Assembly (NCBI GenBank): GCA_018398765.1
Contig: JAHBMJ010003375.1
Location: 26,419 to 90,418, forward strand
Source: Chromera velia
Taxonomy: Eukaryota > Sar > Chromeraceae
DNA: 64,000 nt
Direction of reading: 5' to 3'
Each line of letters starts with the position of its first letter. Position 1 is the first letter of the stretch. Under the pieces are notes generated by a model. It did no database searches and was not told the DNA's origin. It saw nothing but the letters and a program-made list of their open reading frames with translations. This document shows positions 5,456 to 54,472 of the stretch, in pieces. The translations under genes were made by a program, and so were the position numbers.

Positions 5456-8400
5456 ATGGCAGGGGCGAGGCATGGGGGCGAGGAGGGCTCACTAGATATC
5501 ACGGAAGAGGAGAGCAATGACTTGCTGAGAGATCTTTTTTTGGAAACTTTTCGTCCCGTGGTCTACGAGGAGGGGGACCGTGCACTATCAGAAGGAGAGG
5601 AGCACGAAGAACTGCAACGGTTCCGATGTACACGAAGAATTCCAAGGGAAGAGAGGGAGAGGGCTGGTGCAAGCGCTGCGGCTGCTGCATCATCAGCCCA
5701 ACCCGTCACACGAAGGAGATGGGATGGTGGTGGGCGACGGAGCAAAGGAGCCGTTGAAGAGGAGACGAACTTCGTTCCCCTCCCTTCCGCTCGATCTGCG
5801 CGCGGGGGTCCTTCGTCCTCCTCTGCCTCTGCCTACACTGCTGTAGCGGCTGCGTCTTCCTCTTCCTCCAGGAGAGTCACGGAGCAACCAGTAGACGGAA
5901 GAGACGTGAAGAACACCCGGACGCTCCGACGGAAGCCCAGCACGGCCTTCACGTGGGCGAAGCGACGTGCAGTGCTCCATGGCCCCCCCCGATTGGCGGT
6001 GGACCTGAGGAAGTTCGCTTCAGAGGCTTCGGGTGTGTTGAAGGAGTTGAGGGAAGTGCACGCAGACGAACCCCATAAAGACCAAGACATGGAGGCTGTA
6101 ATAGAGTCAGTCGGCTCGGCATGATTCTTTTTCTCCCGTATTTTTTTATTTCCTGCGCATTTCTCTATGTTTCTGTGCACCCACTGACATTTCTGCATGC
6201 ATCCTCCTGTCGGTCCGTGTGTTTGTCTGTCTGCCTCTAGTTCTCTCTGGCTTCGTTTGATGGAAGAAGAAAGGAAAGCAGGTACCTTCTCAGCAGAATG
6301 CATGGTTTCCTTTGTGTGTCGCATAACTTGTCTGTCTTCTCTGCCTGCCTGCCTTTTCATCCTCTTGCCCCCTCCGTAGAAATAAATATATTCTCTCCAG
6401 TCTCCGTGCCTGTCGATCCAATGATTCTCTCCAGTCTCCGTGCCTGTCGATCCAATGATTCTCTCCAGTCTCCGTGCCTGTCGATCCAATGATTCTCTCC
6501 AGTCTCCGTGCCTGTCGATCCAGTGATTCTCTCCAGTCTCCGTGCCCGTCGATCCAATGATTCTCTCCAGTCTCCGTGCCTGTCGATCCAATGATTCTCT
6601 CCAGTCTCCGTGCCCGTCGATCCAATGATTCTCTCCAGTCTCCGTGCCTGTCGATCCAATGATTCTCTCCAGTCTCCGTGCCCGTCGATCCAATGATTCT
6701 CTCCAGTCTCCGTGCCTGTCGATCCAATGATTCCAACCCATGTGGTATCTCATTTGTGGCATGCCCCCTTTTTTCGTGCAGCGTTGGTGTGTGCGTTGAG
6801 AGAACAATCTTTCAGCAGATCCAGCAGGGGGTGGAGGCAGACCTCGAAAGACTGAGACCATCCCTGGATGCTTTCAAACAGATGGCAGACAGCAGAACGC
6901 AAGCGAGGCTGAAGAGAAAGGAGGAGAGGGACCGACGAGCAGAGAGAATGAAAACAGCTGCTGCGGCTGCTGCTGCTGCTGCCAGTGCGAGTGGCGGCGC
7001 TGCTGCTGGGAGTGGAAATACCGGAGGTGCAGCGGCAGGGACCGCTGCTGGTTGTGCAATCAGTGCTGGTGCGTGTGCAGGTGAATCGCAGGAGGGCGTC
7101 TCCATATCTGGAGACGGGGACAGCGAATTGGAGGTTGGGGGAAGGCGAAAGAGAGGTCGAGAGGAGGCTGGAGGGGGAGGCCCTGATGGGGAAGTAGTAG
7201 GGGAAAAGGGGAAAGGAGAAGAGAGGATTCATGCCGCGTCATCGTCAAGTGGTGTTGCAGCTCAGCCTGTTGAAGGGCGGCAGGAGAAAAAAGGGAGGGG
7301 GGATCAAAATGAAGAGATGATGTGTGAGGATAAGGGGGGGCAGGATGGCCAAGAAGTTTCTCCTGAAGAGTTGCGAGAAAAGGAGAGAGAGAAGGAGATC
7401 AGTGCCCTTCTGGCAGAAGTGACAGCGAAGGTCGCGGCAGCACGGTCGGGGAAATACGAAAAGAGGGGCACAATGCTGGAAAGAGCGCTGAAGAAGGAAG
7501 AGACGTCAGTTCGTCTATCTGCTGCCTATCTGTCTGTTTGTCTGTGTGTCTCTCAGTCGGTCAGACGCTCTGTTTTCTCGTCCTTCTGCTGGCACCTGCT
7601 CCTTTGATTTCCGCCTTGAGACGAATTCGCTCCGTTTGTTTCTTTCTCTCTCCTTCCTTCCCCTCTTCCTCCCTTGACGACTTCATGTGTTTTTTCCTTC
7701 GCCGATTCTTTTCTTTCTCTCTCTCTTTTCCCTCTTTTTGCCCTTCTGTTTATCTCTATATTCTGTGCTTTCTCTGCTCTCCTGCGTGCAGGGTGGAGCC
7801 TGTTGGCCTCGGGAAACTCCCGGAGCCCGCGTACAGTGAAAGGCGCATCAAAGAGAAGGTGAGTTTCGTTGCACGGCGATGCTGTGCAGAAATTACCACT
7901 TCCAATAAAAAAGAGGGGGTATGTCCTTTTTCTCCCCTCACGCTATGTGAGAAAGACGCAGAGACGGTGTCGTGCGGTTGCAGGGAAGACAATTCAGCTC
8001 TGCCGTCTATTGTTCTTCTGTTAGTTTGGGTCGCTGGGCCGTCCACTCTTTTGTATGTGCGCAGACACAGACGCGATCTCACCAAGAAGAGTGTTTGTGC
8101 GCTCCCATGCCTTCCCTCTCTCTTATCTTTACTGCCTGCGTGCTTGCTTACTCGACTATGAATACATTCGCACAAATCCCTGCTCCAATGAAAAACATCT
8201 GCAGCTTCGAGCGGAGAGCCAGGTAAGCTCCTGGCGTCTCGTTGACTCTTGTGAGAGATCTGCCCAGGCAGGGTCCCGTCTGAAGATCCCCTTCGTGCGT
8301 CAGAACCTGATGGAGCACACGGACCCACACGAGGCGGCACGGAGAATTGTGTTGAGGGAAAGCGCCAATAGAGACAGGGGGAGGGGGACGCACACGACGA

Positions 8401-12341: not shown

Positions 12342-12912
12342 AATTTTCCGGACCCGTCGGATACTGTCGGATTACAAGACCTAACAAGCAAATTTTATAT
12401 ACTCGAACCGCGGAATCTACCTTCCGGACCCATCGGATTATACAAGACCCAACAAGCAAATTCTGCGCGATGATCTTAAATTTGAGAGCAAACCGCAGAA
12501 TTTACCTTCCGGACCCATCAGATTACAAGACCCAACAAGCAAATTCTGCGTGATGATCTCAAATTTGAGAGCAAACCACAGAATTTGCTTTCCGGGTCCG
12601 TTGGATTACAAGACCTAACAAGCAAATTCTGTATGATGATATCAAATTTGAGAGCAAACCGCAGAATTTGCCTTCCGGACCCGTCAGATTACAAGACCCA
12701 ACAAGCAAATTCTGCGTGATGATCTCAAATTTGAGAGCAAACCGCAGAATTTGCCTTCCGGACCCGTCAGATTACAAGACCCAACAAGCAAATTCTGCGT
12801 GATGATCTTAAATTTGAGAGCAAACCGCAGAATTTGCCTTCCGGACCCGTCGGATTTCAAGACCCAACAAGCTCAAATTTGAGAGCAAACCGCAGAATCT
12901 GCCTTCCGGGTC
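12342..12912. repeat. 83-bp satellite array, about 7 units
   Basis: Units begin CCTTCCGGACCCGTCGGATT at about 12420, 12505, 12588, 12671, 12754, 12837 and 12902, giving spacings of 85, 83, 83, 83, 83 and 65 bp, with a degenerate partial unit before them. Most units contain a perfect 11-bp inverted repeat, CAAATTCTGCG and CGCAGAATTTG, around the palindrome TCAAATTTGA, so a single strand could fold into a hairpin. The last interval has lost about 18 bp, including the left arm. Confidence 0.9.
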
Positions 12913-12958: not shown

Positions 12959-13299
12959 ATGCAACCGCACGTACGTATAAAATCTTCAATAAACGATCGA
13001 TATATATATATCGATATATATATACCCATTTTAATTACTTCAGTGTACGTCACTTCACACTGCATGAGAAGGCACGAAAGTCCCAATTAAAGTCCAAGCG
13101 TCGATCCGGAAGTCCGAAGAAAGCGGGAGAAGAACCTGCTAAGTCAGATCGTTGTTGTGATCGGGAACGGTCTGACATCTCATAAGATATCCCCCCCTAG
13201 CTGTTGATGTCTTGTTGATACCGATACGCCTGGCTTGTCAGGACAAGGACAATTATTTCCTGCCTTTGGGAAAGTCAGCCGAGTCTTTGAGCTTCAGAC

Positions 13300-16200
13300 A
13301 TGCAGCCCGCCGAGGCTGAGGTGAACCCTCGGGTGGTTTCCACCTGGACTCCCGATATCGCGCGTGAACTTGAGGAAGAGCTCGAGGTCGAACTTGACCC
13401 CGTGATCGCCTTTCTGGAAAGTGGGGCGAAAATGAAACCCCTGATCTGGAACGGCTTCAGTCCCGAGAGCCGACAGACGTACAAAATGTGGTTGGAACAG
13501 ACATTCCAGATGGATGATGAGGCAACAACAACCCTTGAACACGCCATCATCCGAATGGCATACATGCACAAGTGCGACACGGAAGGTCCGGAGGACCGAA
13601 TGCCGATGTTCTGCAGCGATGTCTTTGGAAAGCCTGACAGTATTCCCGGGAAGTCCCGAAAACTCCTTGCAGACGCCCGAAAATGCCACGTCGACCATCC
13701 CGAGTTGGCAATCCAAATGATTGATGCAGCAGGAAAAGACCTGAATGGCGACGACTGGGACCACAAAGAGTTTAGGGCCACGTTGGCCTGGTGCGCCGCC
13801 GGTGTGAAAGCAGAGCAGTTGCAGTGCCCAGAAGAAGCCAAAGACCTTCTTGTGTGGGCCTTGCAAATCAAGTATGAATATTACGGAATGAACAGTCCCT
13901 ACCTGTATTGGTACTACCTTGCTCTAGGGGATGTCCACAGCGCTATGGAAGACTATCGGAGGGCAGAGATGAATTTCGATCATGCGAAGACTTGTGCGCA
14001 GAACGGAGGCACACGCAGGCAGCAGGCCCGCGCACTCACTCGCCTGGCCTCCGCGTTCTGCATGCTCTCGGGAGGGAACCACGGACACGCCGAATTGGAC
14101 GAAGCAGCCTCCCTCATCCGTGCAGCCAAGCAGCCGCTGGTGTACGTGTGGACGGAGCTCAAATGCGTCCGAGGTTTGATGTACGTATTCAAGCAAGACT
14201 ACGATACTGCCTTGATGCATCTGAATTCAGGATGGAAGTTGGTCAAGAAGCAGTACCACCCCGATGATAAGTTCCGCCAAGCCTACCAAGAGCTTAGGGC
14301 TCTGTGCATGGACAACGTGAGTGAGGATTTTGAGAAGCATCCAGAGAAGCCTGTGCCACAAAAGAAAAAAGTCGACAAACCTCCAGAACAGAAAAAGGTC
14401 ACCGCTCCCCCCCCCCCCCCCCCCAAGCCCAAGCCCGCCCCTCAGAAGAAGAAGGAGGCCCCCCCCCCCCNCCCCGCAGAGATCGTGGAAGAAGAAGAAG
14501 ACCCCTGGGTGCCCCTCATCAAAGAGGGCGCAAAGCTGAAGGGATCGGGTGAGTACAAAGAGAGTCTGGCTCGATTCCAAAAGGCCATGGAGCTTCTCAA
14601 AGAAGCAGACGAGGAAGAATCCCCCGAGACCATCACCTGCCTAGCCTTCTGCTGTAACAACCATATCAAACTGGAGAATTGGCAAGAAGCCAATGAGTAC
14701 CGCGTTCGACTCGCCACAATGCAGCAGACTGTCCTAGGGAAGTACAACCTGAAGGCTGCGAACAACTGGAATCGTGCCAGCTGTCTCGCGGGTCACGATT
14801 TGAATGATTGGGACAAGGGCCTTGAATACCTCAAAAATTGTCTGGACATTGTCAGATACGCACTCGGTACCGACGATGAGCAGAGGATGAAGATTGAGGA
14901 GAGACTCTTCTACGTCCTTGAGAAGATGGTATGCTTCCCATGTTTATGTTTTCTCTTCTTTCATCACGAAAAAGAAACCAGACACTGCAATTCAATTCTG
15001 GTATGCAGTCAAATTGGATGATATGTCCGGGTCGGTCTGTTGGTCTGTGGCTGTGAGCCTCTCTGTTTGCCTTTTTGGTATAGAGGCAAAGAGGAAAAAA
15101 GTGAATGGAAGAATGGAAGATAAAGAAAAGCAGTTATAATGTGAGATGTTCGAAGTGTGGAGACTCTCCCTTCCTGACAAAATGTTGCTCGAGACATCCG
15201 AGTGGTTGGCAGCCTGCAAGAAAGCTTTTCGGTCTCTACCTCCCTGCCCTTGAAACAAACTCCTTTTGGATCTTCCTCTCGCTTTCCTTCAATATCCGCA
15301 TTCCTTTTTGATTCCTTTCACACACACACAACTCCCCCCCCTCCCTCCCTGTTGACTTCATTCATTCATGCAGGGAAGGTCCGATGAGGCCAGAGAACAA
15401 GTGCGCCAGTGCCTGAAAGTCCGGATGAGAGTCAACGGGTCGCAGCACGAGCAGACCAGAAAACTTCAGGTAGGTGAGAAGTTTCACCGTCCGCCCATTT
15501 AGCTGTGTGTCTGTTTGGCCGCCTCTTTGCTTGTGGATATGCCCGTCTTTCCATAGGCTATTTAATTTGCATCTCTCTTTCGCTGATTCGATTCATCTTT
15601 TCCGGCCCGAGTTTCTGTTTCTCTGTGCATTTTGAATGCAAGTAAGTGTCTCTCTGTCAGTGTGTATCTCGTCAGACTGTCAAGTACCACTCGCTTGTTT
15701 GCCTGTTTGTCGTTCCTCCTCTCGTCCAACTCCTCTCTGACCCTTCCGCTTACAAGCGGACATGTTTAGCTGTATCTGCCTCATGTGTGTGTGTGTGTGT
15801 GTACGTGTCCATGTACGTATGGGTATGTTCACGTTTTCGGCGGTGCGTTGCAGCAAAAGATGAACGAGATGGATCCCGTAGAGAAGTGGCCGGACACTCT
15901 CGTCTTCTTCCACAAGAAATGGTCGAACATGCGCGTGTGCCTTGAGAAAACCAGTGAGGAATCTGATGGGGCCCCTGTCTACATGCCAATCAAGGGAGCA
16001 AAAAACGAAGTGCGCATTCGGAAGGTCAGGGGCACGTGGTATCTCCAGAAAGTCGGGGAGGAGAAACGATTCATGGCCAGAGCCACGGGAGAAACACCCA
16101 GAATTGCCAACTGGGGCGAGGATGTGGACATGTACGTCCCAAAGAAACCGGACTACAGCGGCTTGTGGAAAGACCCCGACTTCCCCCACTCAGATGCCTC

Positions 16201-23595: not shown

Positions 23596-23919
23596 TTAAT
23601 GTGGCGACAAACACAAAGAAAAGAAAAGAAAAGAAAAGGAAAGGAGGAAATGGATCAATGAGGAAAAGAAGAGATCTGTTGGCACTCGACGGTCGTTTCT
23701 TTGAACACAAATACCCTTCCCTCCACAATCTTTACAGCGGTGACGCTGCCTAACATGTTCACATATTCCCCCTCCTCCACAGTCTTTACACAAAGTGAGC
23801 TGGCGGCCATGGTCACAGATGCTTTTCCCTCCACACTCCATGCATTGAGAGCCTTTGATGCCATAATCACATATCCCCCCCCTGCTCTCTTCTCCAACCA
23901 GAGAGAGGGCTAGATCCAA
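23596..23919 (-). pseudogene. Decayed zinc-knuckle-like repeat remnant downstream of the minus-strand CBM20-like gene
   Basis: The frame shows three recognisable units (ICDYGIKGSQCMECGG, ICDHGRQLTLCKDCGG, ICEHVRQRHRCKDCGG). It then departs from the family ending: the terminal Cys-rich unit is replaced by ICVQRNDRRVPTD and a different frame. It lies about 160 bp past the stop of the gene at 24080-26170, in the same orientation. A 22-bp direct repeat (CCAACCAGAGAGAGGGCTAGAT) sits at its 5' edge. A leftover of a duplicated C-terminus is likelier than a working small gene. Confidence 0.6.
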
Positions 23920-24079
23920 CCAGAGAGAGGGCTAGATCCATCCGTCCGGATGAACAGAGAGATGATGAAAGGTCTCGACAAACACATGCAGGAAGGACAG
24001 CAGGCAAGAAGAGAAAGGAGCACATCGCTCTACAAGCAACACAAAGGACTTCGAGATGGAAGAGAAAGGAGCAAATCGA

Positions 24080-26170
24080 TCAAGGAGGAAGAGAAGCGAC
24101 CTGCTTGCACTCCTGGCAGTATCGACTGTACTTTCGGTGAACACAGAAGGCCCCCCCTCCGCAGTCCTTGCAAAAGTAGCGCTGCTTTCCGTGTTCACAA
24201 ATACTCTTCCCGCCACATTCCTTGCACCGAGAGCGAATGCGACCGTGCTCGCATATGCTTTTCCCTCCACACTCCTTGCACTTGCAGCGCTCGCGGCCGT
24301 GTTCACAGATACTCGTCCCTCCGCACTCCTTGCAGTGGTGTCGCTGCCGGCCGTGCTCACAGATGCTCTTCCCCCCGCAATCCTTGCACTGAGAGCGAAT
24401 GCGACCGTGTTCACAGATGCTCTTCCCTCCGCACTCCTTGCACTTGCTGCGCTCGCGACCGTGGTCACAAATGCCCTTCCCCCCGCACTCTTTGCACTGA
24501 GAGCGCCTGCGGCCGTGCTCACAAATATCCTTCCCTCCGCAGTCTTTGCACTGAGGGCGCCTGCGACCGTGCTCACAGATGCCCTTCCCTCCACAATCCT
24601 TGCACCTAGAGCGCTGCCGGCCGTGCTCACATATGCCCTTCCCTCCGCACTTTTTGCATTGAGAGCGCAGCCGACCGTGCTCACATATGCCCTTCCCTCC
24701 GCACTTTTTGCATTGAGAGCGCAGCCGACCGTGCTCACATACGCTCTTCCCTCCGCACTTTTTGCATTGAGAGCGCCTGCGACCGTGCTCACAGATGCTC
24801 TTCCCTCCGCACTCCTTGCACGTGTGTCGCTGTTGGCCGTGCTCACATACGCCCTTCCCTCCGCATTCCGTGCACCTGTATCGCTCCCGGCCGTGATCAC
24901 AAATTCTCCCTCCTCCGCACTCTTTGCATGTAGAGCGAACCCGTCCATGCAAGCAGAGAATCTGCCCATGGCGGTTCCTCTTTACCTCTCCTCCCTCTCC
25001 CCCTCGATGATCATTCTCACACACAACCGCTTTCCCTCCAGCGATCGGATCACCCCTCCCTCTGCACACCTCAGAAGAGAGAGGGGGGGAGTCCGAAAGA
25101 GACTCAGACAACCGACGTTGTTTCTCTTCCCGCACGCAACCCCTCCCCCTTCCCTCCCCCCACAACACATCCCCCCCCCTCTCAACGGGACAGCCAGACA
25201 CCTCATCGCACTCGTCAGCCTCCACCTGAGTGAGGGCACTCTCTGACCATCGACGCTTCTGAGGAACCACCGATGAGTGTTGAGTCATTTCAGACTGCCC
25301 CTGACGGTGTGCCTCTTCCTCTTGCATATGGCTGGATGAGTTCGGACGGTGGGAACGAAGGTCTCTGTGTTCACACGTCTCTTTGGTGAGACGGTTGCCA
25401 TCTTCCCTTTCCCTTCTCTGACCGCCAGACTGTGTGAGCTTGACTGCTGACTCTGCAGGAGGACAGACTGCTGATTCGGTGGCACAAATAGAGACGCTGA
25501 CTGACGTGTGATGACTTTCTGAATCGAATATTCTGGTGTCCGTTTGGGTCCTGTGCTGTGCGGAAAGAGGACAAGCAACCTCGGACTGAATTGTTCTTTG
25601 CGGGTTTTCAGTCTGCCTGTCTGTGTGCAGAGAGAGCAGTGCCAACTGCAGACTCTCAGGGACCCCCCATTCCACCGAAATCCCAACCAGCTCCCTCTTC
25701 TGATGATCTCTCCCCCCTTCTGCACCGACATGGAGTGTGTTGACACCCCTCTCTCCGACCGAAGAGCAATCAGAGAGAGAAGGCCCACTAACGAGACGCA
25801 CGATACGGAAGTCTCCACCATTCAGTGGCTCAAGACACATGAGGTTGCCAGGATGTAGCACCTCAGTCTCTTCACCATCGTTCGGAATCGCAAGCAGTCG
25901 AAACTTCAATTCTGACACCCCCGCACCCCCACCCTCTCCCCCCACCCCCACCCCATTCACGAAACCTCCAGAGACGCCCACAGGGGACTCTGGGAGATTC
26001 ACCTCCACCTCACTCGACACCCACCAAGGACGCCCACACGGTGCAGGGGCGAGAGACAACGCACCATCCAACTCCCACCCTCCCAGTTCAGGACAATCTC
26101 CCACCACCACAACGCGTTGATTCTCTCGCACCTCCGGGCAATGCGCAACAAAGGCGATGGATCCTTTCAT
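24080..26170 (-). CDS. CBM20-like starch-binding domain fused to 16 zinc-knuckle-like repeats
   Basis: Single-exon frame of 696 aa starting ATG at 26170. Residues ~1-115 resemble CBM20: VVVVGDCPELGGWELDGALS, then WWVSSEVEV, LKFRLL and a late NLMCLEP, matching the order of conserved Trp and Gly positions in starch-binding domains. Residues ~115-400 are low-complexity. The C-terminal ~300 residues are sixteen 18-residue units of form CxHGRxRxxCKxCGGxxI. Each has a CxH and a CxxC pair, expected to bind one zinc. The last unit is variant (FCVHRKYSRYCQEC) and the protein ends CKQVASLPP. No signal peptide or catalytic domain was seen. Paralogous to the divergent gene at 27789-29852. It could regulate starch metabolism or bind nucleic acid or protein through the repeats; the sequence does not decide. 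Confidence 0.82.
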   Translation of the reverse strand: MKGSIAFVAHCPEVRENQRVVVVGDCPELGGWELDGALSLAPAPCGRPWWVSSEVEVNLPESPVGVSGGFVNGVGVGGEGGGAGVSELKFRLLAIPNDGEETEVLHPGNLMCLEPLNGGDFRIVRLVSGPSLSDCSSVGERGVNTLHVGAEGGRDHQKRELVGISVEWGVPESLQLALLSLHTDRQTENPQRTIQSEVACPLSAQHRTQTDTRIFDSESHHTSVSVSICATESAVCPPAESAVKLTQSGGQRREREDGNRLTKETCEHRDLRSHRPNSSSHMQEEEAHRQGQSEMTQHSSVVPQKRRWSESALTQVEADECDEVSGCPVERGGDVLWGEGRGRGCVREEKQRRLSESLSDSPPLSSEVCRGRGDPIAGGKAVVCENDHRGGEGGEVKRNRHGQILCLHGRVRSTCKECGGGRICDHGRERYRCTECGGKGVCEHGQQRHTCKECGGKSICEHGRRRSQCKKCGGKSVCEHGRLRSQCKKCGGKGICEHGRLRSQCKKCGGKGICEHGRQRSRCKDCGGKGICEHGRRRPQCKDCGGKDICEHGRRRSQCKECGGKGICDHGRERSKCKECGGKSICEHGRIRSQCKDCGGKSICEHGRQRHHCKECGGTSICEHGRERCKCKECGGKSICEHGRIRSRCKECGGKSICEHGKQRYFCKDCGGGAFCVHRKYSRYCQECKQVASLPP

Positions 26171-27788
26171 TTTGCCAAAGAAGGGATATATGTAGACGGA
26201 TGTAGACGGCTAAGTTCAACGTTTCAATCGATCGGCAGCTGCGAATCGGAAAGCGGACACAGCTGGCTGTACTCTTCGACGCCGTCGCTCGAATGTCAGC
26301 TGCACAGACCCATGCACAAATTCACGGAGATGAAAGCCGCACACTCGATGCAAGAGGGGCAAAAGCCTTCAGAGACCGGGCAACTTCACACAACAATGTC
26401 AACGCTCGAAGGACGAAAATATAAAGGAAGGAATCTTAATGACGCACCCGCAGTTCCCCAACTCCAACGAAGGTGTCTGCCCAGTCCCTGAGTCTTCCTC
26501 CAAGAGCGTAAGAAGACAAAAGAGGGTCGAAGTCGTAGTCAGATGACTGATTCAATGGTCGTAAAACAGTCCCAGACCATTCAAAACTCCTCATGAAAGA
26601 CTCACGCACGATTGATTGTACGGCCTCCGTATATCGATAGTCGAAGTCGCACTCTAGAGTGAGTCACTCAGTGGAAGGTCTGAAGAAGAAGAAGCGAATC
26701 GCGATCGATCGACAAGCTTCTGTTCGACTGACAAAAAAGATTCAGTCTGTCGATCGTCTTGCTCTGGCTGAGGGACGGTGACCGTTCCTCTCGAACAGAT
26801 TGAATCTTGACTTCACACTTGCAGCAGCAGTGCCTCATAGAGATGTCAAATGATGTCGTCGTCAAGCTGTCAGAGAAGCTCTGACAGACTTTCAGATTCA
26901 AACTGAAATTTAACGCCACGTCAAGTTCAAGACTGCATGTTCAAGATTTTGGAGATACGGCCGCGCGGGATCGCATTGGATCGCATGGGTCGGGGCGCAA
27001 ATTTATAAGGGAATGCCACTGCAATGCCACTGCAGCAACAGAGAGACGCGAGCTTTGACAATGCTTTGACCTTTTGGAACTGTCTTGCAGAGTTGCCTCG
27101 AGTGACACGAGTCGAGTTCAAATATGTATAATTGTCCTCTTTTAGGCTTTCACGGAGTACTTCAACCACCTTACAACTTGCTCTAGCTCGAGTCTATCCC
27201 CGGCGAGAGTGTACCTACATTCAAAGACCAGATTTGAAGGGCTTCTTGATTGTCTCTTGAATTTCAAGTCTCCATATCGATATACGGCCTTTGTTTGTCT
27301 CTGAAGGGACTGCTGCATCGATCAGGAGGCTTTCACTCCTTTGCGCAAGTGTGGCAGACAGAGTTCGACATAGAAGCAAATCAAGGCACTGATCGTGCAC
27401 TGCCTTGGGAAGGGAGAAAACTACGAAGCTGTTGGCAACAAAGTTGCGCAAGGAGTTTCCAACCGTCCCTATATACACCTGCGCTTCGACTTCATCCACT
27501 TCCGGGGGTTGTCTACTTCAGATCTCTTGTGTGTGTCTCCCTAGCTGGTGACCCCCTCGAATTATTATCGTCAAATATCGAATCAAGTCAGTGAATGAGA
27601 GAGTGAACTTCCAGGAATACTGTTGCGATCACTTTGTTGCTCGAGCTCTGCGTTGTGACATTCGAAATCTGCGTAGTAATATTCAATCTTGGTTGTGGCA
27701 GGGTCGGTGTACACATGGTTTTTGGCTTTTGATGTGCGTGCAGAGGTCACTCGGGAGCTCACTTTTGTGTTTCCCGTCAAGTTGACGT
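26171..27788. promoter_or_regulatory. Divergent intergenic region of the CBM20-like gene pair
   Basis: 1.6 kb between the two start codons. No supported gene; short open frames only. It should contain both promoters. CGATCGAT and TCGACTC/GAGTCGA motifs are frequent, but no defined site was recognised. Confidence 0.55.
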
Positions 27789-29852
27789 ATGACTATCAAG
27801 ATGATGGAGGCGGAGACGAGTGTTGTGCTTTTTGCCTGTTCGGGTGTGGAGCCTCGGGAGGGGCAGACGTTGGTGGTTGTCGGCAGCAGCTCTGAGCTCG
27901 GAGGGTGGGATGTGAGTCGCAGTATCTCCCTCCATCGAGTGAAGAACCCTGCCTTCCCAAGCGTGTGGATGTCCTTTCCGATACGACACAGTGCTGGCTC
28001 TGAAGTCCGATTTCAGTTTGCCCTTGTCACACCAAGTGCCGACACTGAGTCTCTTCAATCAATGACGTTTGACGACCGAAGATTGGTGGTAGACGTTCTC
28101 AAATCCTCATCTGCAGTCATTTCAACCATCTCAGCAGCAGCTCCTTCACACAGTCGAAGTCAGGACTGTTGTTGGTGCGTGTGGGGGGAGCCTTTGGGGT
28201 GTGGGTTGCGGGAGGTGGAGGTCGTTAGTGGTGGGTATGCGTTGTTTGGTGGGCGTTGGGGAAATTGGGAGCCACAGGTGAGTCCGTTGAGATTGGAAGA
28301 CATGGTGTTAGCGCAGCAGCAACTCGAACCTGAAAAGGACACGCCCCCTTCTGTCTCCTCAGAGTTAGAGATTGAAAAAGAGAATGCGCGGGAGGGGGGG
28401 GGTGTGGGTGGAGGCGGAACCTTCAGGGGTCCTCCTGAGGGCGACCTGATGGTCAGCGACGTCACTGGAAAGACCGACGGTGCTCTTTCTCAGTCTTTTC
28501 CGATTTGTCCTTCGCCAAAAAGAGAGGGTGAGAGCGGAAAAGAGAGGGGATGTGGAAGTGCAGTGCAGGTTGAAGATGAGTTTTCCGCCCGCAAAAGCCA
28601 TGTGTCACAACAGACGGTTGGTGGTGTGGGGGTCGCACCTGCCTCCGAGAATGCAGATATTCTGATGGTGTGTGGTCACGGCGCTGAGTGTGACGGTGTG
28701 TGTGTGCCCGAGGGTCATCATCATCTGAAGACCAATTCTGCGATTCTGCAGCGGGGAGGGGATGAGTTGAGGGGGGTAAGGGGGGGGATCGGATTTCGAT
28801 TTGCACCTGCAGCTCTGAACAGACGGGGAATTGACAGGGTGAATGGGGGGGAAGGTCTGTCGGGAGGGAAGTCTGCAGAGACGGGGGGAGCGGTGAATCT
28901 TCTGGCGGGGAGAGTTGGGAAGAGTCGGTCGGTCTCCCGAGAGTCCTTGCCAGAGAGAGAGTGTCCGTCTGCCGTGTGTGATGGTCCGAAGCGCCGCCGT
29001 CTCTCTTCTCTTTCCGTTGCCATCTCCGAATCTCAGTCTGACATGTCATTGAGAAGAGGTGAACAGACGTTGATATTTCCCTGTCCGTCTATCCCACAGC
29101 AGCACTCCGGTTTTCCGAAGAGCCGTCTCTCCTTTGACAGCGTCGGAATGAATCAGGCCGACGTCGCATGTCAGCGTGAGGCTGCAGTCTGCGGATTGTC
29201 CGAAGAGGAGGAAACGCAAAGGGGATCGACAAATTGGGGGGGAAACACCACGAAGGCTACCAAGAGACCCCTCTGCCCCCCTGACCGCTGTCACTCAGAC
29301 TGCAGGGGGGCAGAGAGGAAGCACCCCGTCGCTTGCAACAGGGACATCCAGCAGCAGCTCGCGGGTAGAGACGGTAGAACTGAAAAGAATGGTGTAAGAA
29401 GAAAGGGGGAAAAGAGAGAGCACACAGGAGAGGTCAAGAGAGACCGGCACGGAAACATCCTCTGTCCACATGGACGGGTTCGCTCTGCATGCAAAGAGTG
29501 CGGAGGGAAAAGTATTTGTGAGCACGGCAGGGAGCGCTCTAGGTGCAAAGAGTGTGGAGGGAAGGGCATATGTGAGCACGGCCGCATTCGCTCTCGGTGC
29601 AAGGATTGTGGAGTGAAGGGCATCTGTGAGCACGGTCGCAGGCGCTCTCAGTGCAAAGACTGCGGAGGGAAGGATATTTGTGAGCACGGCCGGCAGCGCA
29701 GCAAGTGCAAGGAGTGTGGAGGGAAGAGTATTTGTGAGCACGGCAGGGAGCGCTACTACTGCAAGGCCTGCGGAGGGGGGGCCTTCTGTGTTCATCGAAG
29801 GAAGCGTCGATACTGCCAGGAGTGCAAGCAGGTCGCTTCTCTTCCTCCTTGA
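27789..29852 (+). CDS. CBM20-like starch-binding domain fused to 7 zinc-knuckle-like repeats
   Basis: Single-exon frame of 687 aa. The ATG at 27789 is the upstream choice; ATGs at 27801 and 27804 are equally possible and would better match the paralogue. Residues ~8-110 carry the CBM20 pattern (TLVVVGSSSELGGWDVSRSI, VWMSFPI, VRFQFAL). A ~430-residue low-complexity linker follows, rich in Gly, Ser and charged residues. The C-terminus has seven CxHGRxRxxCKxCGG units, with the third ending GV instead of GG. It finishes with the same variant unit and CKQVASLPP tail as the paralogue at 24080-26170. Both ends are conserved between the paralogues while linker and repeat number differ, which points to unequal exchange within the array. 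No catalytic domain is visible. Confidence 0.82.
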   Translation: MTIKMMEAETSVVLFACSGVEPREGQTLVVVGSSSELGGWDVSRSISLHRVKNPAFPSVWMSFPIRHSAGSEVRFQFALVTPSADTESLQSMTFDDRRLVVDVLKSSSAVISTISAAAPSHSRSQDCCWCVWGEPLGCGLREVEVVSGGYALFGGRWGNWEPQVSPLRLEDMVLAQQQLEPEKDTPPSVSSELEIEKENAREGGGVGGGGTFRGPPEGDLMVSDVTGKTDGALSQSFPICPSPKREGESGKERGCGSAVQVEDEFSARKSHVSQQTVGGVGVAPASENADILMVCGHGAECDGVCVPEGHHHLKTNSAILQRGGDELRGVRGGIGFRFAPAALNRRGIDRVNGGEGLSGGKSAETGGAVNLLAGRVGKSRSVSRESLPERECPSAVCDGPKRRRLSSLSVAISESQSDMSLRRGEQTLIFPCPSIPQQHSGFPKSRLSFDSVGMNQADVACQREAAVCGLSEEEETQRGSTNWGGNTTKATKRPLCPPDRCHSDCRGAERKHPVACNRDIQQQLAGRDGRTEKNGVRRKGEKREHTGEVKRDRHGNILCPHGRVRSACKECGGKSICEHGRERSRCKECGGKGICEHGRIRSRCKDCGVKGICEHGRRRSQCKDCGGKDICEHGRQRSKCKECGGKSICEHGRERYYCKACGGGAFCVHRRKRRYCQECKQVASLPP

Positions 29853-30361
29853 TCCATGTGTTTCCTTTTTCACTTCTGCTGTCTGTCTAGGCTTTCCAAC
29901 TCTCCCTTCTTTCAGTTGAGGCATATGCGATCTGTGTTGCTTGTAGAGCGATTTGTTGCTTCAAAGGGGGGAGGAGTGCGCACTGCCAAAGGGGAGGGGA
30001 GGAGAGTCTGTGGGGCATCTCCTTGATCGCTCTCGCTCTAAGGATCTCCTTTTCTTTTCCACCTCAGCTGCCATGCTTTCGCTTCCCCGTTTCAATTTTG
30101 TTCCGATGCCTCATTTTTTCTCTTCTCTATTCTCTCTGTGTGAGGTCCTTGTATGTCCTAGCTTGTCCCTCCATTGTTTGATTTGCTCTCTGTATGCATT
30201 CAAATGGTTTGAGGAAATTCTTCTTCTGCCTTGTTTGCGTGCTCTGATCTGCACTTTTGGGTCGGATCAATCGACAGGAGAATGCGAATGAGATCGCCTG
30301 TCTGGAAGACGAGAGGGAGGGCTCTGAGAATTCATCTCTTCGTGCAATAGAAAAGGGGGGA

Positions 30362-30505
30362 AGAGTATCTGGAAGCATGCAATGCCGGCACTGCTACTTC
30401 TGCAAGCCTTAGGATTGGGGAGGGAAGGGCATCTATGGTAACGGAAAGGACCGACGACACTGCCAAGAGTGCAAGAGGTCTCTTCTCGTCCTCCTTGATC
30501 CATTT
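30362..30505 (+). pseudogene. Decayed zinc-knuckle-like repeat tail downstream of the plus-strand CBM20-like gene
   Basis: Translated pieces MQCRHCYFCKP, an in-frame stop, then GGKGIYGNGKDRRHCQECKR resemble the last two repeat units and the ECKQ ending of the gene at 27789-29852. Stops and lost cysteines show decay. It lies about 510 bp past the stop codon in the same orientation, mirroring the remnant at 23596-23919. Confidence 0.6.
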
Positions 30506-33500
30506 TTCTCTGCCTCTTCTCGTCTATTGTCCTTCCCGCATGTGTCTGTCGAGAGCTTTCCTGTTCAGTTCCCTGCGCCCCTTTCCTTTTCTCTACATGC
30601 ATGAAAGATCAATCGTCTGTTTTTCTGTCTGTCTGTCTGTCTGTGGAAAGAAAAGACAATATTGTCTGTCTATCTATCTGTCTGTCTCTCTGTCTGTCTG
30701 TCTGTCTGTCTGCACTCACTCTCTGCTCCTTTTATTTTGGATTTCGTGGGAAAGACCCCTTTCGATTGTCCTTCTCACAGTCTCGTTGCCTGTGCGCTGC
30801 TCTTCTTTCTCTGGCTATTAGACGATAGGACTCGGTCTGGTCGAGTCTTAGACTCAGATTTTTGCTTAAATTGCTTAATAGTGCGTACCTCATCTCATTG
30901 TTGAGTCTCACCCGAAGCTAACCATCATTTGCTTATTATCTGATGCAAGCTGATAGTGTCGATTGGTACTGCATGGACCGCGGCTACGGATCGTAACGGA
31001 CGGTAAAGACTTTTAAAAGATGCATTATTACTGGTAAATCCCTTTTCTCTTTCCGTTGTCAAGGATTGAACACCAACATTCCTTTGCCTAACGCTAGAAG
31101 CTAGTTACCAAGAAGTATCCATAACTGGATACGGATGGTGATGACGCGCTATATAATGATAGTCTTGATTTAAACAGAGTGGGGAAGGAGAGCAGAGAGA
31201 GACTGAGGACAGTAATTAAAAACTTTTGTGGGGAGCATTGATTTAAAGTTCTTTTCTAGCTTTTAGCATGTCATTCTTTCTCTTCCTTTTGCTAGTCGAT
31301 CCTTTTATCTTGTTTATCTCTTCTTGCTACTAGCTTTATCACTCATTTAACCTCCGATTTGACCTAGCAGTTGACCGTAATTTTGATGTATGCTAGGACG
31401 TATGCTATTGTACGTTGGACGCACTTTGCAATGAGCCTTTCAACCTTAGGTTTAACCTTCATATTAAATGGCCGGAACATTCCTGGCGGGCCGGTTGGAT
31501 CGGTTTGATGCTCTCTCACGGTGTTAGGTTGAGCAAAATCATCCATCACAGTATAAGCCGTCGGCTGCCATAACACAGTGCCGTCCCCTAGCAGTGGACT
31601 ACAGGAAAAAACCCAGAACATTCATCTAGACATTAGTAATACTCTAGACGTATCAGAGAGAAAAAAAAAATAATTTAAGCCCATCTTCATTTAATTTTTT
31701 TTTTTGCCCGATGATGTTAGGTGACAAACAATTGTTGTTCAACAATGTCGATCCCCTATGCAGATATGCAGCCCTCGGTTTCAAACAGGCAGCCAATCTT
31801 CCCACACACAGGTAAGACATCTTGCCGCCAGTGAAAGGCAACTTATAGAAACCATCTAATTGCGGGCCCCCCAGGTGAGAGAAGAGAAGAAAGAGAGATC
31901 CAAAGAGAAGCAAGGTAAGCCTGTGTGGACTGCCGAGCTCGTTTCCCCACTGACAGTGTCTGCTGTGTTCTGTGTCTCGAGTCCATTAGGGAAGGGGAGC
32001 CCGGAATCAGTTTCAGCTGCAGAAATGCAGAGCATCCAATTAATTTGTAGAGAGTGTGGAGTGAGGCAGCTCACCATACATGAGATTGACTAGAGAATGA
32101 GGTGGCGGGTGTTTGGACTGGTCGTCAGCATGAGGGGAGTGATGGAGTTAGATAAGCCAAACAGGGCTTACCAATTCATACCATTATAATATTCGCACTT
32201 CGTACTTTGCCCGCGGTGCATGTGTAGAGCGAGTCCGAAGGAAGAGCAGACAGACGGATTTCCTTGCTGCCCGCCGATGGTGTTTTGTACGATCCTACGG
32301 GTACCCGAGATAGATTACTTGAGAGATCTCCCCGCGGCCTCTCAAGCACAGCCCAGAGGAAATGGGACTAGGGAAGCCTTAGAGGAGGAGGGAGTGGAAG
32401 CCCAAGGAGAGAGAGGGGAAAGAAGGGGGGAAAAGTAAAGGGGCACATTTTTTTTCTTTTTATTTCCTTCCTTGCCTGCTCTGCCGTTCCCTTTTTACCG
32501 CATTTCCCTTTTCACTTGTGCTGATCAGAAAACTCCCTCCTTTTATCGATCCCAGTCAAGAATAATGTTGTCAGATGTTGTTTCGCCATGCATCACAATT
32601 GACAATGCATGCATTTCCTTTATGTTTTGTTTTTTTCCTTTTAATTTTATGCAATTTGTTTACTGATCTGTCCTTTTGACTCTTTTTTCTTTGTAATTAC
32701 TATGTATTCTTATCCTTTTCCTTTCTAAAGTGTATGACAGTCACCGTGACTGGTATATCTATTTGCAGTAGTCCTTTTAGTACTATGTACATCGCACTTT
32801 TGTGTCCTTTTTTTGTGACAATTTTCCCTTTTGACAGAGCCACTGCCTTTCCTGTACATATATAAGGCCCGTAGGTTTCCCATTGATGTACGTCAATACA
32901 TGTTATTGAGAGCATGCATGCAATAAGAAGAAAAACATACGATCCATCCATATATACCAAACGGCACCAAATGGGCGCCGCGCAGGCTTTACCGAAACCT
33001 CGCGCCGCCGCAGCAGTGTATGACAGCAATTTTGGCTCTGATTTAATTCTTTTTCTGCGTTTTTCCTATCTCCGTCTACGTGCATCCAGCCATGCATGTC
33101 AGGCATGCACAACCAGAAAAAAAATTCGAACAAGAAAAGAGTGAACCAGAATTTTCCTATTTGAGGTACAGATAGAGAGCTGAATGAAAGCACTTCATGT
33201 TTGCAGTCCATGACCGTCTGTGTCTTTCGTTTGTCTTTGTTTGCGGACAAGCCAGTCCGAGGAGTACATGTCCATCTCACAATGAGTGCGAGATTTCCCC
33301 TCAATGGAAGCTATACATGTTTACTCTGTTTTTCTACTACTTCCTCGTGGAAGGCAGTTCATGTCTGAATGAAAGCACCAGGACAGAGAGCGTGAGAATA
33401 GAAGAAAAGTAAAGAAAAGGATAGACGAGGATTTAGCTGGATGGAAGCGAAACTTCTTTTCAAGAGGTGACCATCGGGCAAGGATGGATTACTCAAGAGA

Positions 33501-51679: not shown

Positions 51680-53475
51680 AATGAATCTGTTCCCTTTTCG
51701 CAGATTTTCTATTGACCACATTGGTTGCAAATTCGAAAAATGGAGACGCGCCACCTAAGTCTCCCTGTCTGGTCTCCCCCCCTGAGGCCCTGGATACATG
51801 ATGGGAATGATGTGGTCGACGTGCCACTGAGTACCATAATTGTCCCACGACATTCCAGGGTTGCCGTGGAACCCGTCTCTCTCCAAATGAGACTTGAGGT
51901 GCTCGTATGAACACCCCAGATACTCGTGCGTTCGCTTCCGCTTACAAGAGGGCAGTCCTGCTCTAATTGTTCTCAAAAATTTTGCAAGTTGATTCCTCGC
52001 ATTGGAGATCATCCGGTAGACACCATCTGCTTTGTATCGCATTCGGATCCCTTCTTGCGTTCTTTTCTTTCGTCTTACAAAGGCCGGATTGTCTTTCTGG
52101 CATTCTGAACAAGACGTACGCACTCTGTCGTGTTCACATATCTGACTCCCTTTGCATTCCCTGCACACGATCCGGATACGACCGTGTTCACATATTCCTG
52201 TCCCTCGGCACTCTCTACAATGATAACGTCGGCGACCATGCTCGCATATTCCAATACCGCCGCATTCCCTGCACCTGTACTTATGGCGGCCATGTACGCA
52301 AAGCGCCCTCCCCCCGCATTCTTTGCACGTGTCTCGCCGGCGCCCATGTTCACAGATTCCACTACCACCGCAATCTTTGCAAAGATTACGTTGACGACCG
52401 TGTTCACAGATTCCACTACCACCACAATCCTTGCATAAGTGTCTTTGACGCCCGTGTTCACATAAGCCTTTTCCACCACATGCCTTACAATATCGGCGTG
52501 GCTTTCCGTGCTCGCACAATTGACTTCCACTGCAGTCTCTGCAATACCGCCGATCACGCCCGTGTACACAAATCCCCCTCCCTCCACACTCACTACAATA
52601 ATATTTTTGCTTGCCGTGAGGACACCGTCTTTTCGGTAGAGCGCGTATCGAACCCGCAGATGTGGTTTCCGAGAGGAGGACGGATGAGGCTCGGGAGCAT
52701 GTTGGGAAAGACAGACGGTCCAGACAGTTGTTCTCGATCAACGTTTGCTCTTTTAGCTTCTCAAAAATGTGCAACCCAACAACCGCCACAAATATCTCCG
52801 CAAACGACTCGGATCGGAACGTCCATCCTGCTGCACCAGCATGAGAGGTAGAGCATATAACAGGGGTGGATTCCGCAGGCTGGTAGTGGGCCGCGGAGCT
52901 CTCGAGGGACCGTTCGGAAGGAACTCTCTTTTTCAATACCTCTCCCGCTGTTCCATCCGGACACCCATCAGTGATGGTGTCTGTACCCCAAAGAGAAGAA
53001 ACATTGCGGATGAAGACAACCAGGAGAGGGTACAAGTGGAACCCTGTAGCCCAAGGGCTGCTCATTCCCACGTGGAGAACGAGGGAGCTGGCTAGGAAAT
53101 CTAAAACAGTGAAAAAAGCAACTCTCCCTTGATAAGTACTGGCAGTGGAAAACTGTCTTTTCTGCAGTGAAACCGCAGGGGAGAAAATTGAGGAAACGTG
53201 AGAGGGTCTACCAATGAATCTGTTCCCTTTTCGCAGATTTTCTATTGACCACATTGGTTGCAAATTCAAAAAATGGAGACGCGCTACCTGAGTCTCCCTG
53301 TCTGGTCTCCCCCCCTGAGGCCCCGGATACATGATGGGAATGATGTGGTCGACGTGCCATTGAGTGCCATAATTGTCCCACGACATTCCAGGGTTGCCGT
53401 GGAACCCGTCTCTCTCCAAATGAGACTTGAGGTGCTCATATGAACACCCCAAGTACTCGTGCGTTCGCTTCCGCT
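51680..53475 (-). repeat. Two near-identical HNH-coding blocks
   Basis: 51680-51935 and 53212-53475 differ at only about ten positions over roughly 255 bp. The zinc-knuckle repeats beside them, and the linker between them, are far more diverged. This is consistent with recent gene conversion or copying of just the HNH segment. Confidence 0.85.
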
Positions 53476-54349
53476 GAGGCAAAGGCTTCCCTTCTCTGAG
53501 TGCTGATACACACTTGTTCACTGAATTTCGAGTTGTTTGCATCAACCGGTAAACAGCATCTTCTTTATACCTCAAAAGCCGTCGGTCTCTGCGCTGTGCA
53601 AAAAGCGGGTTATCTTTCTGGCACTTCGGACAATTTGACCGAATGCGAAAGTGTTCACATATTTGACCCCCTCCGCACTCTTTACATGTGCTGCGTTGAC
53701 GTCCATGTTCGCAAATCCCCCTGCCTCCGCAATCTCTACACCTGTATCTAGAGCGACCATGTACACAAAGAGCCCCCCCACCACATTCTTTACATACGGA
53801 TCGCCTGCGCCCGTGTTTACAGATTTGAGTGCCGCCGCAATCCTTGCAATACATTCGGCGGCGTCCGTGCTCGCAAATCCCATTTCCCCCACACTCTCTG
53901 CAGTAGTGACGGAGGCGTCCGTGCTCACACAGCGAAGTACCACCACAGTCTTTGCAGGTATATTTCTGGCGACCGTGCACACAGACGGAGCTTCCGCCAC
54001 ATTCCTTGCATTGGGTCCTTCGTCTTCCGTGTACACAGATTCCCTTCCCCCCGCAAGCTTTGCAGAGGCTTCTTTGGCGCCCATGCTCGCATATGCCACT
54101 CCCGCGACACTCCCTACAATACTGTCGGTTGCGCCCATGCTCGCAAATGCCCCTCCCCCCACATTCTTTACAAGTGTATTTTGATCTACCATGAGGACAG
54201 AGCGGCTTCTTTTTTGGTGCGCGGGTCGCAGGCAGGGACGATGGCTCTGGACAGGGCTCTGGCGTCTGTCTCGCCTCGGCTTTCGAAATTTTCGAGACTG
54301 CCAGACTGTTGCTGCTGCGCTGAGGGATTAAAAAAGTGTCGGATCTGCA
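51755..54349 (-). CDS. Tandem zinc-knuckle-like repeat / HNH nuclease protein, second HNH truncated
   Basis: One open frame of 864 codons from the ATG at 54349 (MQIRHFLIPQRSS). Module A has eleven CxHGRxRxxCxxCGG units, then an HNH domain: CSYEHLKSHLERDG, WHVDHIIPIM, LNLQPMWSIENLRKGNR. This is the DH...N...H layout of HNH endonucleases found in algae and large DNA viruses. A ~200-residue linker with no known domain follows (about 53210-52615). Module B has ten repeat units and a second HNH block that stops at TAG (51757-51755), where module A has CAG (53290-53288). The lost part, still readable down to about 51655, holds the last conserved Asn/Lys/Asn motif. The linker may be intronic, or the modules may be two genes; ATTG|GTAGAC after module A looks like a donor. 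A mobile or domesticated nuclease is possible. No terminal repeats were seen. Confidence 0.75.
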   Translation of the reverse strand, partial: CRSDTFLIPQRSSNSLAVSKISKAEARQTPEPCPEPSSLPATRAPKKKPLCPHGRSKYTCKECGGRGICEHGRNRQYCRECRGSGICEHGRQRSLCKACGGKGICVHGRRRTQCKECGGSSVCVHGRQKYTCKDCGGTSLCEHGRLRHYCRECGGNGICEHGRRRMYCKDCGGTQICKHGRRRSVCKECGGGALCVHGRSRYRCRDCGGRGICEHGRQRSTCKECGGGQICEHFRIRSNCPKCQKDNPLFAQRRDRRLLRYKEDAVYRLMQTTRNSVNKCVSALREGKPLPQRKRTHEYLGCSYEHLKSHLERDGFHGNPGMSWDNYGTQWHVDHIIPIMYPGPQGGRPDRETQVARLHFLNLQPMWSIENLRKGNRFIGRPSHVSSIFSPAVSLQKRQFSTASTYQGRVAFFTVLDFLASSLVLHVGMSSPWATGFHLYPLLVVFIRNVSSLWGTDTITDGCPDGTAGEVLKKRVPSERSLESSAAHYQPAESTPVICSTSHAGAAGWTFRSESFAEIFVAVVGLHIFEKLKEQTLIENNCLDRLSFPTCSRASSVLLSETTSAGSIRALPKRRCPHGKQKYYCSECGGRGICVHGRDRRYCRDCSGSQLCEHGKPRRYCKACGGKGLCEHGRQRHLCKDCGGSGICEHGRQRNLCKDCGGSGICEHGRRRDTCKECGGRALCVHGRHKYRCRECGGIGICEHGRRRYHCRECRGTGICEHGRIRIVCRECKGSQICEHDRVRTSCSECQKDNPAFVRRKKRTQEGIRMRYKADGVYRMISNARNQLAKFLRTIRAGLPSCKRKRTHEYLGCSYEHLKSHLERDGFHGNPGMSWDNYGTQWHVDHIIPIMYPGPQGGRPDRET

Positions 54350-54472
54350 TTCCTGTGGATTCGATCCAGAGAAAGGTGAATGACGTGACTGAAGTCCCGG
54401 ATGGGGGTCATCTGTGGCACCTTCCTCCAGAATCCGTTCGCATGCAGCTGAGCTGCCACGCCGGTCGGTCTA

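Follow-up and report, generated by a model that had tools for sequence, protein, structure and literature searches.

A CBM20-like domain joined to an array of 18-residue CxH-x6-CxxC units in head-to-head gene pairs of Chromera velia

The 64,000-nucleotide stretch of Chromera velia DNA analyzed here (the window) holds two neighboring genes, A and B, that each join an N-terminal domain of the starch-binding CBM20 type to a C-terminal array of Cys/His units, which raises the question of whether their products handle starch or recognize something else. A and B are two single-frame open reading frames facing each other head-to-head, A on the reverse and B on the forward strand, as the first-pass annotation had described (Table 1). 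The open frame of gene A (26209..24080, reverse strand) spans 709 residues from stop to stop, with its first Met at 26170; that of gene B (27786..29852, forward strand) spans 688 residues, and its Met at 27801/27804 is kept across the family. Both frames are unbroken from the N-terminus through the array, so joining the two parts requires no splicing. A Pfam search of both proteins at E<=10 returned PF00686 only, with no enzyme family and no zinc-finger model. The architecture of a CBM20-like domain followed by a CxH-x6-CxxC array is thus confirmed in both genes. The array 3' ends also form an inverted repeat at both ends of the window A/B unit.

Table 1. Positions of the array-bearing genes and associated features in the window.
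Feature	Position	Strand	Description
Gene A	24080..26170	-	CBM20-like domain, variable middle and 16-unit array; ~696 aa from first Met
Gene A N-terminal CBM20-type domain	25796..26170	-	Residues 8-61 of P0001 in the Pfam match; outer boundary drawn by eye
Gene A array	24083..24958	-	16 units of 18 aa; the last is a cap unit (...CVHRKYSRYCQECKQVASLPP, stop)
Divergent intergenic region	26171..27800	.	~1.6 kb; length conserved in 31/33 pairs; no sequence conservation between distant pairs
Gene B	27801..29852	+	CBM20-like domain, variable middle and 7-unit array
Gene B CBM_20 Pfam match	27825..28040	+	Residues 13-84 of P0002
Gene B array	29460..29849	+	7 units; C-terminal cap unit of the same kind as in A
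Additional array 3' end, decayed, past gene A	23599..23931	-	
Additional array 3' end, decayed, past gene B	30355..30560	+	
ORF C	51758..54469	-	[11-unit array + HNH] then [10-unit array + HNH], one frame of 904 aa
ORF C first HNH domain	53210..53473	-	WHVDHIIP...NLQPMW...N..KGN

The N-terminal domains match the CBM20 family. PF00686 (CBM_20) scores 25.3 bits in A and 35.6 bits in B, above the Pfam cut-off of 23.3 in both, and ten of ten A-type members match CBM_20 at E<=0.1 in a profile search. The gene A domain carries a family-specific variable insert. The predicted structure of the gene B N-terminus is all-beta, at low confidence, and its top structural matches are starch-binding domains. 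With a profile match from the Pfam check that the first-pass annotation had proposed, a single frame and an all-beta model of low confidence, the architecture it described stands.

The starch site itself is largely replaced. Canonical glucoamylase starch site 1 consists of Trp543, Lys578, and Trp590. The first Trp is kept in both A and B, where the LGxW motif is present; in place of the Lys, A has Arg and B has Gln, and the second Trp is replaced by Leu in A, with no conservation at this place in B. Each protein therefore retains one of the three canonical residues, short of a working site 1, a loss that would lower the likelihood of starch binding while leaving CBM20 family membership unaffected. 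The second Trp is present in six of eight other CBM20 matches of the genome; of the remaining two, one is interrupted by a stop at this point and the other is too short to show it. In place of the Lys, Arg also occurs in one of these eight ordinary matches. Third-type relatives carry this Arg in six of six cases, and C3079 is the one among them without the second Trp. Five relatives for which no A/B pair was seen (C3853, C2045, C718, C2205, and C3141) retain the second Trp within a WEPGPGN-like motif.

The first-pass annotation had suggested that the two proteins are storage-granule factors. In such a role, CBM20 would attach to cytosolic amylopectin, and the array would hold on to partners or nucleic acid beside the granule. 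The above-cut-off CBM_20 matches, a gene A protein that begins at the CBM20 domain without a leader, and the second Trp retained by the five relatives outside the pairs are all compatible with this function, which is nevertheless weakened by the survival of one in three residues of the main starch site in A and B, by fast array turnover, and by an array that elsewhere accompanies nuclease-type domains. We consider it quite unlikely.

The array has its own distinctive pattern. Its unit is C-x-H-x6-C-x2-C in 18 residues, with ligand positions C2, H4, C11, and C14; the unit counts and the 18-residue step are as first claimed. The search pattern itself imposed the fixed C and H residues, and the evidence lies in the remaining positions only. 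Sequence entropy peaks at unit positions 7, 9, and 10 in 518 non-HNH units (51 array ORFs not assigned to HNH loci, not all with an established CBM20), in 131 mostly HNH units (nine ORFs, including L018, for which HNH is not established), and in 82 virus and archaeal units. In the HNH and virus units, position 17 comes close to these three in variability. Near-invariant basic residues occupy positions 6, 8, and 12, and the mean net charge is about +2.3 per unit. Position 7 looks positively selected (2.6, bootstrap interval 0.95-46), with estimates of 0.9 and 0.64 for positions 9 and 10 and a high value of 2.3 for position 13, a D/E swap. For the array we found neither a Pfam model nor a solved structure, and no fold match explaining binding; among solved chains, ribosomal eS27/S27e come nearest in sequence, with weak matches (E 0.028 and 0.089). 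Array counts are lower bounds, since 150 of 888 candidates were scored.

A cap unit terminates 36 of the 60 array ORFs read, of which L039-L068 were fetched with the cap as query. In the seven pairs read, 14 of 14 genes finish in a cap-like unit; the one in C1886 B is divergent. A and B caps are alike within a locus (12 of 5040 permutations, seven pairs), mainly due to one pair (C300).

The same array accompanies nucleases, both in the alga and in viruses. ORF C is a third array gene of the window, besides A and B; its second HNH domain meets an in-frame stop. The genome holds 72 HNH loci, 51 of them with at least two HNH domains ~1.3 kb apart. The array is in frame with HNH at 12 of the 72 loci, which are the 12 checkable ones, one of them in the window; nine were matched by equal open-frame length (C2697, C1055, C3703, C3939, C13, C14, C3610, C341, and C99) and three confirmed by reading (C3256, C442, and C72). 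On virus contigs (IMG/VR), 15 array loci were found, in which the array stands ahead of several kinds of nuclease-type domain, two loci being array-only frames. A PHROGs scan of ten virus or archaeal array proteins gave matches to HNH, endonuclease, or endonuclease VII families in eight (phrog_1035, phrog_28061, phrog_3118, and phrog_3322) and no nuclease-family match in two; four of the eight also match anti-sigma or sigma-decoy families, and one of the ten passes the Pfam Endonuclease_7 threshold. A pithovirus protein named DnaJ central domain protein is 68% identical over the array, and another, named Endonuclease, 45%.

Known members of the HNH/endonuclease VII-type families cut DNA. The presence of the array on virus enzymes of this type suggests that A and B recognize DNA or RNA rather than manage starch, consistent with the nucleic-acid-binding array that the first-pass annotation had put forward. 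RNA could be the target, as in a PPR-like repertoire of RNA-binding proteins: a modular array that varies at few positions and keeps its basic residues nearly invariant would serve equally well for RNA, and the unit differs from the classical DNA-binding finger. Its junction to HNH/endonuclease VII-type domains argues for DNA instead, and we judge RNA recognition unlikely. The array might also bind no nucleic acid and serve as a protein-binding or metal-storing, metallothionein-like scaffold. Four putative metal ligands per 18 residues fit such a role, as do the weak ribosomal matches, and nucleic-acid binding by the array is itself inferred. However, nuclease-linked arrays vary at the same three positions, the basic residues are conserved, and the array precedes several kinds of nuclease-type domain, making a pure scaffold improbable.

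The window pair is one of at least 33 A/B pairs in the genome, all 33 head-to-head and 31 with a start-to-start distance of 1428-1785 bp. Of 63 A rows and 51 B rows, this count uses 47 and 40, respectively; the others were second pieces of one gene (7 A, 2 B) or more distant CBM20 genes (9 A, 9 B). Another 21 genes are unpaired: by coordinates read by eye, at least nine lie too near a contig end for a partner on the contig; some, such as A of C3362, have room on the contig, yet no partner was found. The divergence of A and that of B are correlated across pairs (rho 0.71, 25 pairs). In 37 genes, matched by contig, strand, and open-frame length, the N-terminal domain and the array share one uninterrupted frame, a recurrence that argues against a chance layout; frames are broken in many family members. 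The selection on the N-terminal domains that had been proposed from the conserved ends of the two proteins is borne out by a median dN/dS of 0.45 for A (55 of 55 comparisons used) and 0.51 for B (101 of 105), with values above 1 in 3% of B comparisons. The arrays evolve differently: loci with 80-89% identity in their N-termini carry reshuffled array codes, and the nearest unit sits in the same array for 24.3% of units versus 2.2% expected.

A divergent two-gene unit present in dozens of dispersed copies, the inverted repeat of array 3' ends at the unit ends, and nuclease genes, which are often mobile, as the array's other partners could all reflect the gene content of a mobile element multiplied by transposition. 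Copy likeness, measured against the window pair and within seven pairs, speaks against this: the best full-length matches to the window genes are 87% (A) and 89% (B), most lie at 63-76%, fragments reach 94%, and no near-identical full-length copy of either gene occurs among the genome copies compared with the window pair. The coding sequences are constrained, and no sharp common boundary of the unit was seen, family-wide homology fading within ~60 bp past the stop. We consider transposition a quite unlikely source of the family.

The reading we prefer, with a probability of roughly one half, is that A and B are paired proteins that recognize nucleic acid by means of a targeting array of the virus-nuclease type, to which a CBM20-fold domain is added as partner. 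A-type and B-type proteins would be partners within one large gene family. The C-terminal array would be a string of self-contained putative zinc modules that recognizes nucleic acid, with double-stranded DNA as the likeliest target; residues 7, 9, and 10 of the unit may read bases, and the basic residues 6, 8, and 12 would touch the backbone. In giant and other viruses, as in a sister family of the Chromera velia genome, the role of this module would be to direct HNH-type nucleases. The A/B family has no nuclease; its arrays carry a CBM20-fold domain whose sugar site is degraded and whose role is probably partner binding or small-glucan sensing. A and B, divergent around one shared 1.6-kb region, probably work together, perhaps in regulation or defense, and duplication and loss of units within arrays would keep shifting their targets. 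CBM20 is an odd partner for a DNA-binding protein, which counts against this interpretation.

A bolder proposal, possible but doubtful, sees in the CxH-x6-CxxC array a modular system of recognition not described before: every 18-residue zinc unit would read nucleic acid with its residues 7, 9, and 10, and giant and other viruses would aim HNH-type nucleases with it. The alga, with about 70 such HNH loci, mostly two-headed, and a second repertoire of at least 33 divergent A/B pairs, in which the CBM20-fold domain replaces the nuclease, would then hold a fast-evolving repertoire against viruses or mobile DNA, KRAB zinc finger-like in kind, and the array could be a new programmable DNA-binding scaffold.

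Several known systems share parts of this design. The CBM20 starch-binding domains (PF00686; the glucoamylase SBD, laforin, and STBD1) share with A and B the profile match and the LGxW motif, and they rank first among structural matches for the B model, which is of low confidence; A and B differ in the replaced second Trp and Lys of site 1, in their junction to a zinc-type array without an enzyme family, and in forming dozens of paired genes. Searches of the PMC open-access literature for CBM20 in Chromera velia and for the letters CKECGG found nothing. Virus array-bearing HNH/endonuclease VII-like proteins have in common with A and B the 18-residue unit and variable positions 7, 9, and 10, whereas A and B have a CBM20 N-terminal domain, lack the nuclease domain that ORF C retains, and close the array with a cap unit and stop. 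Should the array read DNA or RNA, viruses and an alga would share a compact scaffold for recognition with 18 residues per unit, and the host would be using a virus-nuclease-type targeting part on a large scale without the nuclease.

Two known Cys/His repeat classes do not fit the array. The C2H2 zinc finger unit is C-x2-4-C ... H-x3-5-H in ~28 residues, unlike the 18-residue C-x-H-x6-C-x2-C unit, which draws no Pfam zinc-finger model at E<=10. EsV-1-7 repeats of brown algae are also Cys/His-rich and common to algae and large DNA viruses, but their spacing is C-x4-C-x16-C-x2-H. In kind, the array resembles the C2H2 fingers of KRAB-ZFP or PRDM9, TALE repeats, and PPR proteins, which likewise combine tandem near-identical units, few hypervariable positions, unit gain and loss, and large families; the A/B unit and its partners differ, and its recognition code is only proposed here. 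The gene arrangement recalls fungal HD1/HD2 mating-type genes and paired plant NLRs, in which two different paralogues also diverge around a shared control region; the protein families are unrelated, and Chromera velia carries its many pairs in one genome, where the head-to-head arrangement offers a direct test of a partner system.

We infer that the array shared by genes A and B, a tandem series of 18-residue CxH-x6-CxxC zinc-type units behind a CBM20-like N-terminus, recognises nucleic acid, most likely DNA. The decisive clue to its nature is ORF C, a two-headed nuclease-type gene 22 kb from the A/B pair in which arrays and HNH domains alternate in one frame. The HNH part matches phrog_28061 (E 7.5e-6), and an array-HNH query was matched by 112 of 50,697 phage records, mostly over the HNH part among the matches listed. 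HNH matches of the ORF C type number 124 in the genome, at 72 loci; 51 of these loci have at least two HNH about 1.3 kb apart, and an array in the same frame as HNH is visible at the 12 that were checked.

The same arrangement extends to viral and archaeal contigs. A search with an alignment of the window arrays found 15 virus-contig loci at 42-68% identity, and reading the virus and archaeal loci stop to stop revealed the array before several kinds of nuclease-type domain. The HNH of ORF C accompanies it in L118, L119 and L121 (virus) and in L146 (archaeal contig), Endonuclease_7 in L126 (27.3 bits, cut-off 23.6), and HNH/endonuclease families of PHROGs in L116, L123, L125 and L130, where sigma-decoy or anti-sigma families were also matched. 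L117, L120, L122, L124 and L138 carry a part that is endonuclease VII-like by eye only; the first four gave no Pfam match above cut-off, and the sole PHROGs match of L117 and L124 is phrog_37414, of unknown function. L129, L143 and L145 look by eye like L125, L130 and L126, and L127 and L128 are short frames with array only. L118 and L119 lie in opposite orientation on one 34,654-base IMG/VR contig, separated by about 1.5 kb, and encode identical array-HNH proteins; the duplicate may be genuine or may come from the assembly. A structure-based search of viral models with a model of the array (pLDDT 85.9, pTM 0.51) retrieved a Pithovirus LCPAC304 protein named DnaJ central domain protein (68% identity), an 'Endonuclease' of Pithovirus LCPAC404 (45%), and three further unnamed proteins with E below 1e-9.

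Features of the window, with coordinates
Feature	Position	Strand	Content
Gene A	24080-26170	-	CBM20-like N-terminus, 16 units
Gene B	27801-29852	+	CBM20-like N-terminus, 7 units
Divergent region	26171-27800		between A and B
Decayed copy	23599-23931	-	array 3' end
Decayed copy	30355-30560	+	array 3' end
ORF C	54469-51758	-	11 units + HNH domain, then 10 units + HNH domain, one frame
Tandem repeat	6390-6733		10.1 copies of 34 bp
Tandem repeat	12406-12872		5.6 copies of 83 bp
Open frames	13291-15018, 46748-48160, 48367-49896	+	matches to TPR and WD40; probable exons of ordinary genes

Within the unit, variation is concentrated at a few places. Across 51 non-HNH array ORFs (518 units), entropy is highest at positions 7, 9 and 10 (3.0, 2.7 and 3.25 bits), and G5, R6, R8, K12, G15 and G16 are each held by one residue in 86-96%. 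A unit carries a net charge of about +2.3. The same positions lead again in 131 mostly HNH units (2.8, 2.8 and 3.4, with position 17 near at 2.7), and reach 3.1, 3.1 and 3.5 in 82 virus and archaeal units, where position 17 stands at 3.1. Counting single-nucleotide differences between near-identical units gave a nonsynonymous excess of 2.6 at position 7, 0.9 at position 9 and 0.64 at position 10. Position 13, where D and E interchange, reached 2.3, and all other positions stayed below 0.5. With a bootstrap interval of 0.95-46 at position 7, positive selection there is suggested rather than demonstrated.

The array also turns over quickly. Taking residues 7, 9 and 10 of each unit as a code, we compared the window with loci that match its N-termini at 80-89% identity: six A arrays have 1 to 4 units in common with window A in order, and five B arrays have 1 each with window B. 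The 16 units of window A and the 15 of the A gene on contig C3686 have 4 in common; the 7 and 11 units of the corresponding B genes have 1. A five-unit code block is present twice in the B gene of C763, and 24.3% of units have their nearest DNA relative within their own array, versus 2.2% expected. A cap-like unit, mostly ...CVHRKDRRYCQECKQVSSLPP, closes every one of the 14 genes in the seven pairs read, at any array length. The conserved ends and variable middle that the first-pass annotation described therefore recur at the level of the array itself.

Genes A and B belong to a family copied in pairs. The two window N-termini retrieved 63 A and 51 B rows from the genome (178 Mb, 4040 contigs), reduced to 47 A and 40 B loci by taking out second pieces of the same gene and distant relatives. 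These form 33 pairs within 4 kb, head-to-head in 33 of 33, with start-to-start distances of 1428-1785 bp in 31 and 2336 and 2876 in the other two. In the 25 pairs whose matches are long, identity of A to window A follows that of B to window B (rho 0.71, p 7e-5), as expected if pairs are copied as units. N-terminal domain and array share a single unbroken frame in at least 37 genes; other members have broken frames (e.g., C2353 B, C3995 B and C3686 A). Both N-termini are under moderate purifying selection, as median dN/dS is 0.45 for A (55 comparisons) and 0.51 for B (101 comparisons, above 1 in 3%), and the two are related to one another (hhalign probability 90%, 37 columns).

The divergent region is constant in length among the seven pairs read, and its conservation goes up at both start codons. 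C2353, C3686 and C763 resemble one another at 86-88% in its sequence, the window shows 55-57% against four other pairs, and the remaining combinations give 45-50%, which we judge near noise. For C2353, C3686 and C763, the divergent region is only 55-57% like the one in the window, despite 80-88% likeness in the coding N-termini. Past both stops lie decayed copies that look as if the 3' ends of A and B had been partly duplicated. In the pair on C300 (L070), A and B do not differ along the 150 bp that comprise the last unit and the bases following it, a sign of gene conversion inside the pair; six other pairs tested give 52-71%.

CBM20 itself is a known family. Its two-tryptophan starch site, site 1 (Trp, Lys and Trp, which we take to be residues 543, 578 and 590), was read from alignments to the glucoamylase starch-binding domain (1ac0), laforin and same-genome CBM20 hits. 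The first Trp (LGGW) is kept by both A and B, except in one B copy. A has Arg for the Lys and Leu for the second Trp; B has Gln for the Lys and no conserved residue where the second Trp would be. The change to Arg by itself may be harmless, since Arg also occupies this place in one other same-genome CBM20 hit and in a third CBM20 type, whose members were not seen in A/B pairs. In five of six third-type relatives the second Trp is present as part of a WEPGPGN-like motif (L110, L111, L112, L114 and L115, on C3853, C2045, C718, C2205 and C3141); the sixth, on C3079, is without it. At least two of these genes (C3853 and C2045) carry the array in the same frame, so an ancestral form may have bound glucan, an activity probably lost or changed in the paired A and B forms.

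In the proposed mechanism, each unit would hold one putative zinc, which fits the run from CxH to CxxC seen in each unit and, from opening to close, in most arrays read. Recognition would depend on residues 7, 9 and 10, with the basic scaffold of the units holding the backbone of the target. The role of the CBM20-fold domain, the weakest step in this scheme, would be to link A with B or to sense a glucan. A repertoire aimed at viral or mobile DNA would fit the many loci, the fast turnover of the arrays and the likeness to virus nucleases; so would a family of transcription regulators, and we prefer neither.

No Pfam model matched the array in A or B at E<=10, neither a good match nor a close relative was found among solved structures, and no description of it was found in the titles and abstract starts of listings of open-access papers. 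We place A and B with a known kind, modular zinc arrays that carry a partner domain, and their function is predicted. By eye, the best-covered phage relative, a Sinorhizobium phage AP-16-3 protein, has CxxC-type ribbons before the same HNH as ORF C; they sit where the array does, but differ from the 18-residue unit.
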